Positions 2,994-9,426 of a DNA stretch of 26,161 bases are shown piece by piece. The stretch is from a virus, in the IMG/VR virus record IMGVR_UViG_3300009537_000149, positions 1 through 26,161 of that record; one strand, given 5' to 3'. The notes under the pieces were generated by a model that saw only the letters and a program-made list of their open reading frames with translations, ran no database searches and was not told the origin of the DNA. How positions within the stretch are numbered: the stretch's first letter is position 1; every line of letters begins with the position of its first letter. The position numbers and the translations under genes were made by a program.

Positions 2994-3443
2994 ATGGCCC
3001 TTTACGACGAACTGGGACTGGCCCCTCCTGAGGATCCTGAGGACGAGATACCCTACAAAAAGACTAGCATTTCACCATTCGATTTCGTCAATTCCGTCAC
3101 CCACAATAAGCAGAATCTTATGGTTGACGAATGGAGCGAAAAGCAGTATAAACCCTTTATTGTCAATAGGTCGTTGAGCTACGGTGCTGATACGGTTATA
3201 TATGCTAATGAAATGAATAGCCGACCTCATATTCCTGCACCCTTTCAATATTCATTTTTGCTAAATACTATTAGACCGCGCAAACGGTTTAATAAATGGA
3301 TTCGGGCAGAGAAGATTGAGGCGATTGATGTGATTAAAGAATATTACGGGTTTGGGACTAAGAAGGCTCAGGTCGCGCTCAGTATTCTCACCGATAAGCA
3401 AATTGGGTATATAACCTTAAAGTTAAATAAAGGTGGAATATGA
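2994..3443 (+). CDS. 62: Clamp-loader small subunit (gp62-like)
   Basis: 149 residues. In T4, one gp62 joins four gp44 subunits to form the clamp loader. Position between 44 and regA, and a body resembling the short gp62 of T4-like phages of marine bacteria, support the call: FDFVNSVTHNKQNL, then PFIVNRSLSYGADTVIYANEM (residues about 54-73), then a basic RPRKRFNKW. T4 gp62 is longer (187 aa) and has the comparable segments MVENALSQFPECMPAVYAMN and RGKRYGKW. It starts one base after the gp44 stop and its own TGA overlaps the regA ATG (ATGA), so the three genes are translationally coupled. No strong Shine-Dalgarno is visible. Confidence 0.88.
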   Translation: MALYDELGLAPPEDPEDEIPYKKTSISPFDFVNSVTHNKQNLMVDEWSEKQYKPFIVNRSLSYGADTVIYANEMNSRPHIPAPFQYSFLLNTIRPRKRFNKWIRAEKIEAIDVIKEYYGFGTKKAQVALSILTDKQIGYITLKLNKGGI

Positions 3444-3856
3444 GAGCCGAACTGTTTACCGAAGAAATAGCGGAGTACACACCCGTTGAGGTGACGCTGA
3501 ACACTCCTGACGATTTTTTGAAGGTGCGGGAGACCTTGTCTAGAATAGGAGTTGCTTCACGCAAAGATAACACTCTGTATCAGAGTTGCCACATCCTACA
3601 TAAGCAAGGACGTTATTATATTGTTCATTTCAAAGAGCTTTTTGCTCTGGACGGTAAGGAATCTGATATTAGCGAGAATGATTTAAGCCGTCGAAATACG
3701 ATTGCTCACCTATTAGAAGATTGGGGACTAGTGACTCTTTTAAATCCCGAGAAGTGTGAGGATACTGCACCGCTATCGCAAATCAAAATCATTTCTTTTA
3801 AGGAAAAGAATGAGTGGAACCTAGTTCAGAAATATCGTCTCGGAAAGAAACTGTAA
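3440..3856 (+). CDS. regA: RegA translational repressor
   Basis: 138 residues. RegA binds initiation regions of early mRNAs and represses translation, including that of clamp and clamp-loader genes in T4. The match is strong: VEVTLNTPDDFLKVRETLSR against T4 EITLKKPEDFLKVKETLTR; LYQSCHILHKQGRYYIVHFK against LYQSCHILQKKGLYYIVHFK; LLEDWGLV and the C-terminal FKEKNEWNLVQKY. Compared with the 122-residue T4 protein it has about 15 extra N-terminal residues (MRAELFTEEIAEYTP). The ATG at 3440 is supported by AGGTGG just upstream and the 4-base overlap with gene 62. Unlike in T4, the polymerase gene does not follow directly: two small genes lie between. Confidence 0.95.
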   Translation: MRAELFTEEIAEYTPVEVTLNTPDDFLKVRETLSRIGVASRKDNTLYQSCHILHKQGRYYIVHFKELFALDGKESDISENDLSRRNTIAHLLEDWGLVTLLNPEKCEDTAPLSQIKIISFKEKNEWNLVQKYRLGKKL

Positions 3857-3903
3857 GCCGTTGAAATATAAGCACTTAGCGGCACCCGGGGACAGGCTCG
3901 GGT

Positions 3904-3911
3904 TATAAATA
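3904..3911 (+). promoter_or_regulatory. T4-type late promoter upstream of hsp20
   Basis: TATAAATA is an exact match to the T4 late promoter -10 box, lying in the 135-base regA-hsp20 gap. The expected transcript start (near 3917) falls inside the 21-base repeat at 3914-3934 and would give a ~75-base leader before the hsp20 ATG. T4 late promoters have no -35, and none is seen. No clear terminator was found in this gap, although a weak 5-bp stem (ACCCG 3884-3888 with CGGGT 3899-3903) is present. Confidence 0.6.
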
Positions 3912-3913
3912 TC

Positions 3914-3934
3914 CTGTAGTTGATTGGGTGGTGT
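3914..3934 (+). repeat. Left copy of a 21-bp perfect inverted repeat bracketing hsp20
   Basis: The 21 bases starting CTGTAGTTGATTGGGTGG are exactly reverse-complementary to 4428-4448; the bases just outside and inside the repeat do not pair. This copy sits directly downstream of the late box TATAAATA. Confidence 0.9.
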
Positions 3935-3960
3935 AGTGCTGTGCCGAATGGGCAGTACTA
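3934..3960 (+). promoter_or_regulatory. Stem-loop in the hsp20 leader
   Basis: TAGTGCTG (3934-3941) pairs with CAGTACTA (3953-3960) as an 8-bp stem with one G-U pair. The loop is 11 bases and a further CC/GG pairing is possible. It sits 16 bases before the AGGAGG of hsp20 and is not followed by a T-run, so it looks like leader structure, not a terminator. Confidence 0.4.
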
Positions 3961-3991
3961 CTAAACATTCGCTCTTAGGAGGAATACTATT

Positions 3992-4420
3992 ATGACAAAG
4001 GCAACTACCTATACCACAACCAATAATCCCTGGTTCATCGGTTACGATGACCTATTCAACCGTCTCAACACGTTTGGTGGCGAGGCGGCAACCACAACAT
4101 ACCCACCGTATAACATTATTAAGGCCGACGACAATCATTTTATCATTGAAGTGGCTGCGGCTGGGTTTAAGCGTTCCGACCTTACCGTTAGTTTAGAAGA
4201 CGGCTGCCTGTTTGTTAGGGGGTTAAAGGAAAAAACTGAGGCCGGCGCGGGGCAGGAATATGTGTATCGAGGTCTGGCTACACGTTCGTTTACTCGCAAG
4301 TTTGTTTTAGCAGAAGATGTCCACGTGCGTTCAGTAAATTTTGAGGATGGCATTCTTATTGTTTCACTTGATCGGGTGATCCCGGAACACAAGAAGCCTC
4401 GCACATTCGAAATTAAGTAA
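3992..4420 (+). CDS. hsp20: Small heat-shock protein (Hsp20/IbpA family)
   Basis: 142 residues with one alpha-crystallin domain (about residues 35-135). It shows the IbpA-type N-terminal WFIGYDDLFNRL, the strand YNIIKADDNHFIIEVAAAGFKRSDLTV, and the diagnostic RGLATRSFTRKFVLAEDV...FEDGILIVSLDRVIP. It is an ATP-independent holdase chaperone; Hsp20 genes are common in T4-like phages of cyanobacteria and other aquatic hosts, presumably protecting phage or host proteins during infection or assembly. A strong AGGAGG (3977-3982) precedes the ATG. It has its own late-type promoter within an early gene cluster and is bracketed by a 21-bp inverted repeat. Confidence 0.95.
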   Translation: MTKATTYTTTNNPWFIGYDDLFNRLNTFGGEAATTTYPPYNIIKADDNHFIIEVAAAGFKRSDLTVSLEDGCLFVRGLKEKTEAGAGQEYVYRGLATRSFTRKFVLAEDVHVRSVNFEDGILIVSLDRVIPEHKKPRTFEIK

Positions 4421-4427
4421 GCTGTAA

Positions 4428-4448
4428 ACACCACCCAATCAACTACAG
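4428..4448 (+). repeat. Right copy of the 21-bp inverted repeat bracketing hsp20
   Basis: Exact reverse complement of 3914-3934. It begins 8 bases after the hsp20 stop, and its last two bases start the AGAGG (4447-4451) that is the ribosome binding site of the next gene (ATG 4458). Pairing with the left copy in a common transcript would place that site at the foot of a long-range stem. Confidence 0.9.
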
Positions 4449-4457
4449 AGGTTTATT

Positions 4458-4769
4458 ATGGATGATATTAATTGCGTTCGTTTAGTCACAGGTGAAGACC
4501 TTATTGGAAACATCACTTGGAAGCACAGTGAAGTTACCGTGAAGAATCCAGCAATGATTGTTGTAATGCAAGCAGGAGAGGGGCGTTTTAATATCGGTCT
4601 GGCTCCATATCTCCCATATGCTAAGGAAAAGGAATTTCATTTCCGAGAGGACAGCGTTCTAACTCGCTTTGAGCCGAACATCGAACTGAGAAACGAGTAC
4701 AGCCGAATCTTTGGCTCTGGCATCGTTGTTGCTAATACCGTTCCTTCGAAGTTGAAGCTGGAAATCTAA
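4458..4769 (+). CDS. Conserved hypothetical protein of T4-like phages, possibly Sm-like
   Basis: 103 residues starting MDDINCVRLVTGEDLIGNI. The opening strand-turn pattern (xxVRLVTGEDLIGxI, then KNPAMIVV) and the later GLAPYLPYAKEKEFHF and EYSRIFGSGIV are features I associate with a small protein found in several T4-like phages of marine bacteria near hsp20 or polymerase. The beginning suggests an Sm/LSm-like beta barrel, but this is an impression, not an identification, and I know no established function. The ribosome binding site AGAGG is at 4447-4451. The product is soluble, with no membrane segment. Confidence 0.7.
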   Translation: MDDINCVRLVTGEDLIGNITWKHSEVTVKNPAMIVVMQAGEGRFNIGLAPYLPYAKEKEFHFREDSVLTRFEPNIELRNEYSRIFGSGIVVANTVPSKLKLEI

Positions 4770-4838
4770 TTGGCAATCATCGTCTATATTATTATAGCCT
4801 GTGTTATCGCCAGAGTCCTATACCTTATTCTGGAATAG
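4770..4838 (+). CDS. Possible 22-residue hydrophobic peptide
   Basis: Immediately after the preceding TAA, a TTG opens a frame of 22 codons (LAIIVYIIIACVIARVLYLI then LE) that ends TAG at 4836-4838, one base before the -35 of the gene 43 promoter. The peptide would be a single membrane span. A weak GGAA lies about 8 bases upstream. The near-complete hydrophobicity and neat fit in the gap are suggestive, but the ORF is tiny, starts with TTG and may be chance. Confidence 0.25.
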   Translation: MAIIVYIIIACVIARVLYLILE

Positions 4839-4839
4839 G

Positions 4840-4868
4840 TTGACAATCCTGAGGTGAGTTGTTATATT
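4840..4868 (+). promoter_or_regulatory. Early promoter for DNA polymerase
   Basis: TTGACA (4840-4845), a 17-base spacer, then TATATT (4863-4868). The -35 continues as TTGACAATC and the -10 as GTTATATTT, both shared with the gene 45 promoter. The transcript would start near 4875, about 20 bases before the polymerase ATG. Confidence 0.75.
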
Positions 4869-4893
4869 TCATTATACTACAATGGGGATATAA

Positions 4894-7410
4894 ATGAGCA
4901 AGTTTTACACTAATGTCACTCTCTCTGGAAACAAGATTCTGGTTCGGGAAATAAAGAATGGGCAGAGAATCCAACGCAAGGACGGCTTCTCTCCCACCCT
5001 CTTTGTTCGCTCGGCTGACGAGACTTCTCCATATAAGAGTTTGTTTGGGGAGCGCGTTGGGCCAGTCACATTTGATACAATGTCTGAGGCTAAGAAGTTC
5101 ATCCAATTGTACACCGGGGTTGCCGATTTCCCTATTATGGGGAACACGTCTTATGTCCATCAGTATATTGCTGAAAATTATCCAGGTGAAATTGAGTATG
5201 ATTTCACTCAGTTGAAAATTCTAACAATAGACATTGAGACAAGTGCTGAGTTTGGTTTCCCCAATGCAACGGACCCAGTAGAAGAAGTTCTCTTAATCAC
5301 GGTTCAGGATAACAACACCAAGAAGATTACAACATTTGGTGCGAGGCCCTTTGATGTAAACAACATTCAGTTTATCAAGCACACGGACAATTATGAATAT
5401 GTCAAGTGCAAGGATGAGGCAGACCTCCTCAACACCTTCATTGAATTTTGGGCTAACTCTTACCCCGACATTGTGACTGGTTGGAACACTCAGCTTTTCG
5501 ATATTCCATATCTAGTTGCGCGTATAGACCGAGTGATTGGGATGGATGTTGGGGTGCTGTTATCTCCCTGGAAGGATGTGAAGTTTCGCACCGTCTTTGC
5601 GAATGGCCGTGAAATGCCCGCATATGATATTTCGGGAATTTCATCGCTTGACTATCTTGACCTCTATAGAAAATTTACCTATACGAATCAAGAGAATTAT
5701 CGGCTCGACCACATTGCAATTGTTGAATTGGGGAAACATAAGTTGGAAAACTCCTACGACACATACAAGGATTTCTACACCAAAGATTGGCAGCGGTTTG
5801 TTGAATACAACGTGATTGACGTTGAGCTTGTAGACGAACTTGAGGATAAAATGCGGCTCATTGAGCTTATTGTCACTATGGCATATGATGCCAAATGTAA
5901 ATATAATGATGTATTTTCTGCGGTGAGAACTTGGGACTGCATTTTGTATAATCATCTCCGGGACAAGAACATTGTCGTTCCTCAAAAGAACGAGTCGGTT
6001 GAAAGTCGTTCGATTGTCGGTGCATTTGTCAAGGAGCCTGTTCCTGGAAAGTATAACTGGGTTGTGAGTTTTGACGCGGCTTCGCTATACCCAAGTATCA
6101 TTATGCAACACAATTTGTCTCCCGAGACATTGGTAAGTGACGAGAATATGAATGTAAATGTTGAAGGTCTGCTCAATTCGCAGTATGACCTATCTTCTCT
6201 GCTTGATGAAAATGTTGTAATGAGCGCAAATGGATATAAATTTACGAGAGACAAGATTGGGTTGTTTCCTGAAATCGTTGCAAAAATTTTCAGCGAAAGA
6301 CAGTTCTTCAAAAAGAAGATGATTCAGGTCGAAAAGGAGTATGAAAAAACTCACGACCACGCATTGGTTAGAGAAATTTCTGCCTTAAACAACAAGCAGA
6401 TGGCAAGAAAGATTCAGCTTAATTCTCTTTACGGCGCGTGGGGGAATGAATTCTTTCGTTACTATGATCCCAGAATTGCTGAGGCTGTCACTATGACAGG
6501 GCAGTATATAATTCGACGGGTTGCAAATGTGATGAATGAGTACCTCAATAAGGTCTGCGCGACGAGCAATGTTGATTATGCTTTCTATGGCGATACAGAT
6601 TCGGTTTATATTGCGCTTGACCATCTAGTGAAGAAGTTTTATTCCAACCTGTCAACGGAAGAAATCGTAAATGTCCTAGATAAGATTTGCAAGGATAAGC
6701 TAGAAGTTGAAATCAATAATGCGTGTTCTCAGATATCTGACGTTATGAATGCAACGGAAAAGAAGATATTCTTTAAGAGAGAAGTCATTGCAGATTGTGG
6801 CTTGTGGGTTGCGAAAAAGCGATATGCTTTGAATGTTCACGATTCTGAGGGTGTTCGGTATGAGAAGCCGAAACTTAAGGTGATGGGACTGGAAATCGTT
6901 AGAAGCTCTACGCCTGCTTCGGTGCGTGAGCATCTTCGGGAAGCTGTTCGTATTTGCTTGACGGGTGGGGAAGAGGCAATACAGCAATACATTTTAGAGT
7001 TTGAGAAGAAGTTTCGTTCTCTAACCCCCGAGGAGATCGCCTTTCCGCGAGGAGTTAATAATCTGGAAAAGTATCAGTCCCAAACTAGCATCTATACTAA
7101 AGGAACTCCCTTGCACGTTCGTGGTGCATTGCTCTATAACAAGGAAATCAAAGAAAGAAAATTGGAAAAGAGATATGAAAAGATACGGAATGGTGATAAG
7201 ATAAAGTTTCTGTATTTGACTGAACCAAATACTCTTGGGGAAAATTGTATAGCATTTCAGGGTAAACTGCCAAAGGAACTTGACTTACATCGCTATGTTG
7301 ATTATATTACAATGTTCGAAAAGACGTTCTTGGATCCGATGGATACGGTCCTCGCGTCTATAAAATGGGCATCTAAGCCAGTTGCAACACTTGAAGGTCT
7401 TTTTTCTTAG
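4894..7410 (+). CDS. 43: Family B replicative DNA polymerase (T4 gp43-like)
   Basis: 838 residues (T4 gp43 is 898) with both proofreading exonuclease and polymerase domains. Exonuclease motifs: DIET (Asp113, Glu115), the segment PDIVTGWNTQLFDIPYL, and YNVIDVELV. Polymerase motif A is DAASLYPSII (394-403), motif B KIQLNSLYGAWGN, and motif C YGDTDS with catalytic Asp567 and Asp569; KKRYALNV follows. The C-terminus (TLEGLFS) ends in a hydrophobic tail comparable to the clamp-binding tail of T4 gp43. All catalytic residues are present and the gene is uninterrupted. It has its own early promoter and is followed 9 bases later by uvsX. Confidence 0.97.
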   Translation: MSKFYTNVTLSGNKILVREIKNGQRIQRKDGFSPTLFVRSADETSPYKSLFGERVGPVTFDTMSEAKKFIQLYTGVADFPIMGNTSYVHQYIAENYPGEIEYDFTQLKILTIDIETSAEFGFPNATDPVEEVLLITVQDNNTKKITTFGARPFDVNNIQFIKHTDNYEYVKCKDEADLLNTFIEFWANSYPDIVTGWNTQLFDIPYLVARIDRVIGMDVGVLLSPWKDVKFRTVFANGREMPAYDISGISSLDYLDLYRKFTYTNQENYRLDHIAIVELGKHKLENSYDTYKDFYTKDWQRFVEYNVIDVELVDELEDKMRLIELIVTMAYDAKCKYNDVFSAVRTWDCILYNHLRDKNIVVPQKNESVESRSIVGAFVKEPVPGKYNWVVSFDAASLYPSIIMQHNLSPETLVSDENMNVNVEGLLNSQYDLSSLLDENVVMSANGYKFTRDKIGLFPEIVAKIFSERQFFKKKMIQVEKEYEKTHDHALVREISALNNKQMARKIQLNSLYGAWGNEFFRYYDPRIAEAVTMTGQYIIRRVANVMNEYLNKVCATSNVDYAFYGDTDSVYIALDHLVKKFYSNLSTEEIVNVLDKICKDKLEVEINNACSQISDVMNATEKKIFFKREVIADCGLWVAKKRYALNVHDSEGVRYEKPKLKVMGLEIVRSSTPASVREHLREAVRICLTGGEEAIQQYILEFEKKFRSLTPEEIAFPRGVNNLEKYQSQTSIYTKGTPLHVRGALLYNKEIKERKLEKRYEKIRNGDKIKFLYLTEPNTLGENCIAFQGKLPKELDLHRYVDYITMFEKTFLDPMDTVLASIKWASKPVATLEGLFS

Positions 7411-8469: not shown

Positions 8470-8791
8470 AGAATTATTCTCAGTTCAGCCAATGGAAAAC
8501 TCTCCTGAAGGTTCACAGGACCACGAAATCTTAATTGAGGACGGCGAGTTCACAGGTGTGCGATTTAACTTTGGTGCAATTGAATTTGCAGGTGAAGATG
8601 GTGACGGTAATGGGACGATTCGCTTCAACTATGACATTCACAGCGACCCTGTTCCTGATGATGCTAAGGAGCGGTTCGAATCTGTAATTGGTGAAATTCT
8701 TCACACTATCATCCTCGAAATGGTTTCGAGGGAAGACGCGCCCGCAGAGTCCACAGAAGAGGTTAACGAGGAAGTTTCGGTAACTGAATGA
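8462..8791 (+). CDS. Acidic hypothetical protein between uvsX and the helicase gene
   Basis: 109 residues from ATG 8462, chosen because GAGGAG (8449-8454) lies 7 bases upstream; the frame is open further upstream, but only as an antiphase reading of uvsX. It overlaps uvsX by 8 bases and the helicase start by 4 (ATGA), so all three are translationally coupled. The protein is strongly acidic, with a beta-rich middle (EFTGVRFNFGAIEFAG...GTIRFNYDI), a helix (ERFESVIGEILHTIILEMV) and an acidic tail. T4 has gene 40 at this position with similar length, but gp40 is a membrane-associated head-assembly factor and no sequence similarity is apparent. Function unknown. Confidence 0.75.
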   Translation: MSKELFSVQPMENSPEGSQDHEILIEDGEFTGVRFNFGAIEFAGEDGDGNGTIRFNYDIHSDPVPDDAKERFESVIGEILHTIILEMVSREDAPAESTEEVNEEVSVTE

Positions 8792-9426
8792 AACTTGATT
8801 TGATGATTCTCTCTACCCTCATTAATGATGAGGAATATTTCAGGAAGGTCATTCCTTTTCTGAACGAGGAGTATTTTACGGATGGAAAGGAACGACGAAT
8901 TTTCTCGGCCATAAAAACTTTTGCCGACAAATACAATTCACCTCCTACTATAGAGGCATTGGGGGTAGAGATTCAATCTGCGCGTGATTTGAATGATAGT
9001 GAATATGCTGGTGTTGTTTCTATTCTAGAGGAGATTGGTGTTCCTCCCGATACCAATATGCAGTGGTTGTTAGACAACACCGAAAAGTTCTGTAAGGACA
9101 AGGCCGTATATAATGCAATTGTGAAGTCCATCCAGATTATAGATGGTAAGGACAAGGAGCATTCGCAGGAGGGCATTCCTGATATTCTTCAAAAGGCTCT
9201 TTCGGTTTGTTTTGACACTAATGTTGGTCACGATTATTTTCAGGATTCTGAGTCTCGGTTTGACTTTTATCATCGTAGGGAAAACAAGATCCCCTTTGAC
9301 TTGGAAATGTTCAACAAGATTACCAAGGGAGGGATTCCCAACAAGACGCTTAATATCTGTCTGGCGGGATGTGTCCATCCAGAAACAAAGGTTTTAATTA
9401 GATTTCGGAAACGTAGCTCCAGTTAG
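8788..9426 (+). CDS. 41: Replicative helicase (gp41-like), N-terminal half with a very short N-intein
   Basis: 212 residues. Residues 1-194 are the N-terminal domain and linker of a DnaB-type hexameric helicase (MILSTLINDEEYFRKVIPFL...IPFDLEMFNKITKGGIPNKTLNICLAG), ending inside the P-loop. Cys195 (nucleotide 9370) starts a segment CVHPETKVLIRFRKRSSS that reads as the first strand of an intein and stops at TAG 9424-9426. The rest of the intein and helicase is at 10281-11456. Joined exteins would be 194+267 = 461 residues, against 475 in T4 gp41. The last 29 bases overlap the 3' end of the opposite-strand HNH gene. The start is fixed by the ATGA overlap with the preceding gene. Confidence 0.92.
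   Translation: MKLDLMILSTLINDEEYFRKVIPFLNEEYFTDGKERRIFSAIKTFADKYNSPPTIEALGVEIQSARDLNDSEYAGVVSILEEIGVPPDTNMQWLLDNTEKFCKDKAVYNAIVKSIQIIDGKDKEHSQEGIPDILQKALSVCFDTNVGHDYFQDSESRFDFYHRRENKIPFDLEMFNKITKGGIPNKTLNICLAGCVHPETKVLIRFRKRSSS

Follow-up and report, generated by a model that had tools for sequence, protein, structure and literature searches.

The window, that is, the whole stretch of 26,161 bases analysed here, is the record of a T4-like phage in which regA, hsp20, g103 and DNA polymerase gene 43 follow one another in that order. The upstream gene, regA (3440-3856, + strand), encodes a translational repressor (PF01818, E 7.8e-48; phrog_242) and is followed by the small heat-shock protein gene hsp20 (3992-4420, + strand; PF00011, E 2.9e-17; phrog_432, E 2.7e-42). 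Gene 43 occupies positions 4894-7410 (phrog_262), and these profile matches bear out the names hsp20, regA and 43 that an initial annotation had given to the three genes. Between hsp20 and gene 43 lies g103 (4458-4769, + strand; phrog_527, E 1.2e-13), an Sm-like protein gene of 103 codons whose product matches PDB entry 3BY7 over residues 2-83 (phmmer, 3by7_A, E 2.2e-11). We take 3BY7 to be an Sm-like protein of putative cyanophage origin.

Several signals are found around these genes. An exact match to the T4-type late promoter box, TATAAATA, is present at 3904-3911 (+ strand) and is one of four in the window, against 0.99 expected. In the hsp20 leader, GTAGTGCTG and CAGTACTAC can form a local hairpin (3933-3961, + strand) that appears in the local leader fold and partly in the centroid fold. 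Further downstream, the sequence ATTCGCTC-TTAG-GAGGAAT (3967-3985, + strand) can form a short hairpin with the hsp20 Shine-Dalgarno sequence (3977-3982) inside it. The same hairpin is predicted in the leaders of the related clade described below, while the local minimum fold of the window itself pairs this stretch differently. The ATTCGCTC/GAGGAAT hairpin might act as a simple temperature-sensitive element for this small heat-shock gene; in phages more distantly related, CTCGCT recurs ahead of AGGAG. Gene 43 has a predicted sigma-70 promoter, TTGACA-17-TATATT, which lies 3' of g103 (4840-4868, + strand) and agrees with the consensus at 11 of 12 positions; its two hexamers are identical in the relative L086. 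Elsewhere in the window, the gp44 clamp loader is split, its AAA part ending in 1175-1804 and its lid domain lying in 2237-2992 (1175-2992 overall). The inserted stretch resembles an intein, an impression for which Pfam returned no intein match. Similarly, the N-terminal part of a DnaB-like helicase of the gp41 type (8788-9426) runs into AGCVHPETKVLI, which gives the impression of an intein start and has no database match.

The hsp20 gene is bracketed by a perfect inverted repeat. Positions 3914-3934 (CTGTAGTTGATTGGGTGGTGT) and 4428-4448, both read on the + strand, are exact reverse complements of 21 bp set 493 nt apart, as the initial annotation had placed them, and the repeat is thus confirmed as real. 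The 5' arm begins 3 nt 3' of TATAAATA and shares its last 2 nt with the leader hairpin at 3933-3961. The 3' arm begins 7 nt past the hsp20 stop codon and ends at 4448, so sharing two bases with AGAGG (4447-4451, + strand), the likely g103 Shine-Dalgarno sequence as judged from the sequence and from the opening costs given below. One arm just past a late box and the other reaching into the next gene's ribosome-binding site had likewise been described correctly. Exact inverted repeats of 15 bp or longer are otherwise absent from the 26,161-base window, and with up to three mismatches allowed the 21-mer occurs in the window at the two arms only, while 100 dinucleotide shuffles yielded none. An exact 21-bp inverted repeat is expected by chance, from base composition, about 1.0e-4 times window-wide and 7.9e-6 times within 1 kb, in line with the earlier figure of well below 0.001. 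Searches with the whole window against the Rfam covariance models gave no match at the gathering score, and the exact 21-mer gave none in IMG/VR. The inner 17-mer of the window arm, TGTAGTTGATTGGGTGG, occurs in six IMG/VR stretches, about the number estimated to occur by chance; tblastn found no regA, hsp20, g103, g62, uvsX or gene 43 on them. Following the 3' arm there is no T-run, and no terminator-like site was found in 3700-5000.

Related loci were gathered from IMG/VR with regA, hsp20, arm 17-mer and g103-alignment queries. Among the loci found with regA, it appeared at first that no relative carried the repeat; this was overturned by the loci found with hsp20, 15 more of which have an exact inverted repeat in the corresponding position, 16-19 bp long and of other sequence, mostly ATTGTAGGGGTGTTAGGAG. 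After identical flanks were merged, 121 distinct hsp20 flank pairs remained (of 235 records, 20 were truncated and left uncounted), and arms are present at the same place in 30 of them, namely the window and 29 others, and absent in 91. Where arms are present, the contiguous helix is 16-26 bp long including G-U pairs, with duplex energies of -38.9 to -58.8 kcal/mol; in the armless pairs the longest helix is 15 bp and the energies range from -12.5 to -38.7 kcal/mol. The arm-bearing phages are T4-like, with the order regA-hsp20-g103-43, and g103 stands directly 3' of hsp20 in 30/30 of these pairs. The same adjacency occurs in nine distinct armless flank pairs, and the arms are thus no necessary companion of the gene pair. 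The g103 alignment used as query gave 55 IMG/VR loci, many of them on contigs already found with other queries, while the window g103 protein as sole query had no IMG/VR match; a nucleotide search of one relative's locus against the named phage collection also gave no match.

The 17-mer of the clade arm is found in 47 IMG/VR stretches, all 47 at the hsp20 locus. Four stretches in genome_contigs also contain it, lack regA, hsp20, g103, g62, uvsX and gene 43, and were treated as chance. In 162 loci (1,020,798 bases), further long-spaced exact inverted repeats of at least 16 bp occur in L065 alone, which has five. There, gene 43 appears as two convergent partial copies (4337-5262), the second piece being reversed according to tblastn, which is likely an assembly or amplification artefact. 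In a tree of regA and gene 43 proteins from 38 chosen loci, the window branches as sister to the phages with arms; support is 0.990 for their clade and 0.976 for the clade together with the window versus the outgroups. The armless loci L148, L002, L003, L004, L009 and L011 fall just outside. Relatives with hsp20 in the same position and no complementary flanks, which the initial annotation would have held against a role for the repeat, do exist, but they are the distant ones only, and the nearest group has the flanks. Two irregular loci were also seen. One contig, recovered twice as L166 and L264, has hsp20 and g103 fused into a single reading frame through a deletion that took the 3' arm and left the 5' arm. 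In L185 (3800-4253), part of the hsp20 N-terminal coding region is lost, so that the frame looks broken, and both arms are intact at an arm-to-arm distance of 442 instead of about 516.

The arms of the clade were aligned column by column as haplotypes; the window was left out of this alignment because its arms are too diverged to be aligned by column. In 20 haplotypes and 19 core pairs (380 cells), there are 365 Watson-Crick pairs, six G-U pairs, four gaps and five other combinations. When the partner was slid by 1-3 positions, the paired cells fell from 371 to 154-198 of 380, and when whole 3' arms were shuffled among the 20 haplotypes over 26 pairs, none of 5000 shuffles did as well (mean 27.9 non-pairing cells, against 16 in the real arrangement). 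With L217 and L218 added (22 haplotypes, 418 cells), 396 cells are Watson-Crick, eight G-U, four matched double gaps, two single gaps and eight non-pairing. Haplotype counts are not independent since close relatives share ancestry; by parsimony, the core has undergone approximately 23 changes of pair state.

Each of the eight non-pairing cells belongs to one of pairs 17-19, which lie at the -35 box discussed below: pair 18 is T-A or C-G and is broken (C-A or C-C) in six of the 22 haplotypes, pair 19 is A-T or G-C and broken in one, and pair 17 is T-A and broken in one. Pairs 1-16 contain no mismatched cell. The one-sided substitutions among them, about eight as inferred on the tree, all give sense-strand G-U and never A-C, which points to the sense RNA; the other exception is a bulge of one base, present in L169 and L216. 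At pair 5, A-T and G-C occur, with G-T once; pair 13 is G-C, G-T or A-T, and pair 10 is gone from both arms in two lineages, L132 and the L088/L217/L218 group. Past the core, most members of the clade continue to pair through two near-constant G-U pairs (T-G, G-T) into the TTGAG before the g103 start, and contiguous helices of 24-26 pairs are found in many of them. The arms of the window differ strongly in sequence from those of the clade, with perfect matches of 21 bp and up to 19 bp, respectively, and both pair. As judged by this comparison, the arms have been kept complementary in one phage group while their sequence changed, and the covariation is better explained by pairing in RNA than by inversion of the DNA, a scar of cassette insertion or sites for a protein.

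In the relatives, a sigma-70 promoter is predicted whose -35 box and spacer coincide with the 5' arm. Among 28 flank haplotypes, the -35 element reads TTGATT or TTGACT in 27 and the -10 element reads TANNNT in all 28, with a spacer of 17 nt in 26 haplotypes and 16 nt in two. Because the -35 box and spacer are inside the arm, RNA from this predicted promoter would start past the arm and would not contain it. The consensus scanner placed the arm promoter of L086 below its threshold and did not list it, which makes it a weak match. At the window arm, a scan of 3700-5000 gave no sigma-70 site. The late start, which we take to lie 6 nt after the last A of TATAAATA as is the spacing in T4, would be at about 3917, inside the 5' arm. 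RNA from 3917 would keep 18 of the 21 arm bases, and the computed cost of opening the g103 start in it is 16.9 kcal/mol; the promoter-escape step is therefore not evident in the window. In the outgroups L002, L003, L004 and L011, TATAAATA upstream of hsp20 is followed immediately by a strong hairpin and its T-run; this element could both end regA transcripts and cap the late hsp20 RNA.

Predicted folding places the helix over the g103 start. When 3914-4480 is folded, the 21-bp helix is present in both the minimum-energy and the centroid structures (z -2.9 versus shuffles). The cost of opening was computed as that of freeing g103 bases -20 to +13, in an energy model that contains neither ribosomes nor kinetics. 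For the window, it is 25.1 kcal/mol with the 5' arm and 6.4 kcal/mol without it. The values for 15 phages including the window are 18.6-32.1 kcal/mol with the arm versus 4.7-10.0 kcal/mol without, and for four more phages, cut slightly differently, 21.5-22.7 versus 5.3-7.2; in seven armless controls the cost shifts by at most 2.9. The hsp20 start of the window is unaffected (8.9 both in read-through RNA and in RNA begun right past the arm), and for four members of the clade the cost is 6.7-7.0 when the upstream flank is present and 7.8-10.2 when it is absent. By computation, then, the helix would render the g103 start inaccessible. An hsp20 ribosome terminating 7 nt before the 3' arm of the window could disturb the first few pairs. 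A local alternative, in which GTGTTAG of the arm pairs with CTAACAC of the leader, is predicted in L083, L084, L085, L088, L132, L168 and L216 and not in L090.

These observations are most likely explained by an mRNA that folds back over hsp20 and so shuts the start of the Sm-like gene g103. In any mRNA with both arms, 3914-3934 would pair with 4428-4448, loop out the whole of hsp20 and close the g103 ribosome-binding region. The hsp20 gene would stay translatable, since the helix includes neither its own start region nor its reading frame, both of which are looped out. In RNAs devoid of the 5' arm, g103 would be left open. In the relatives, RNA from the predicted sigma-70 promoter would start past the arm and escape, while RNA reading through from regA would be closed, and we infer that the choice of promoter decides the state of g103. 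The late RNA of the window would retain about 18 of 21 arm bases and lose the three pairs nearest the g103 Shine-Dalgarno sequence; as most of the arm is kept, its escape would be partial at best. We consider it probable that a gene-spanning helix in the sense RNA closes the g103 start and that RNAs without the 5' arm leave it open. A further proposal, which we put forward tentatively and hold to be rather more doubtful than not, is that the T4-like group uses the helix as a timing device for the Sm-like protein, off in RNA that reads through from the replication genes and on in RNA from the hsp20 promoter embedded in the arm DNA, with pairing of the arm to the conserved leader CTAACAC making it a two-state switch.

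Four roles had been suggested initially for the repeat, and of these a long-range RNA stem controlling the gene at 4458 is the one retained: complementarity is kept, and the inner exceptions are sense-strand G-U pairs and a bulge. The other three, namely an invertible hsp20 segment, a cassette boundary and paired protein-binding sites, fare less well. Perfect inverted arms flanking a single gene would suit either of the first two, but the arms covary in step. Moreover, hsp20 has the orientation of regA in all 108 of 108 distinct contig cases with regA at most 2.5 kb upstream, which speaks against inversion, and hsp20 already lies between regA and gene 43 in armless outgroups, which speaks against a boundary left by insertion. 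Both are thus extremely unlikely. Paired DNA sites for one protein, such as operators that loop the hsp20 promoter, would accord with the position of one arm in the spacer of the relatives' predicted promoter and with the strong conservation of arm sequence within the clade, a degree of constancy that pairing by itself would not demand. A single protein site, however, would not let the arms of the window diverge together, nor would it yield only sense-strand G-U in pairs 1-16, and the clade 17-mer is confined to the hsp20 locus. The covariation is explained less well by such sites than by an RNA stem, and we regard them as distinctly unlikely.

Another explanation gives the helix a role in RNA processing or stability. 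Here, a cut of the RNase III type in the 21-26 bp duplex would free the hsp20 mRNA, or a sealed 5' end would protect the late RNA. Sites of double-strand cleavage have helices of similar length and perfection, the helix closes exactly one gene, and the predicted late start of the window falls inside the arm, so that the 5' end would be paired. Protection of the 5' end cannot apply in the clade, however, where RNA from the gene's own promoter is predicted to lack the arm, and the conserved position of the helix at or across the g103 Shine-Dalgarno sequence is not needed for processing; this explanation is rather unlikely. The arms might also be a functionless inverted duplication that arose through template switching or gene conversion and is kept matched in the same way. 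Template switching does make short inverted copies, and the joint changes of the arms, including the matched one-base deletions, would be expected from conversion. Conversion would nevertheless treat G-U and A-C alike, while in pairs 1-16 only G-U is seen; pairing also runs beyond the identical core, where near-constant pairs, T-G and G-T, carry it up to the Shine-Dalgarno sequence, and the arms persist clade-wide at one place where other inverted repeats do not. Such a duplication is therefore very unlikely.

To our knowledge, gene-spanning long-range RNA pairing has rarely been shown by covariation in DNA phages, and the hsp20-g103 comparison itself supplies evidence of this kind. On this reading, an inverted repeat around a gene could be an RNA device and not a sign of DNA inversion. 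If the proposed helix closes g103 as described, the principle of T4 gene e would extend from local stem-loops to the architecture of an operon, and an unexplained phage Sm-like protein would gain a regulated role. In open-access PMC text, no report of the hsp20-flanking repeat was found, and the likeness of g103 to 3BY7 is at the protein level, that entry being a protein structure only.

Two known systems are close to the proposed arrangement. The T4 genes e, soc, 49 and I-TevI are reported to have a promoter within the 5' strand of a helix that conceals the ribosome-binding site (PMC3014915, PMC2988022). The hsp20-g103 locus would resemble this class in having a cis helix over a gene start in a long read-through RNA, and a stable helix of that kind over the regulated start region is computed for the window and 18 relatives. 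In the relatives, the predicted promoter would overlap the DNA that encodes the 5' strand, and its own RNA would lack that strand. In contrast to the T4 class, where a stem-loop sits at the start of the regulated gene, the arms are separated by 493 nt that hold a complete gene, and the target is a second gene; further, the relatives' promoter looks like sigma-70, and the late start of the window keeps most of the arm. By analogy, the logic of T4 gene e would fit the relatives well and the window only partly, and the hsp20-g103 helix is not filed in that class because it is non-local and, in the window, the promoter step is not evident. The other system is the Min Jou interaction of MS2, between coat and replicase, in which long-distance pairing across part of the upstream cistron shuts the downstream start (PMC11339067). 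The hsp20-g103 helix would likewise shut the start of a downstream cistron by long-distance pairing. As described there, one strand of the MS2 pairing is in the coat reading frame and is opened by passing ribosomes, whereas both arms at the phage locus are outside hsp20, so that translation of hsp20 should not open the helix.
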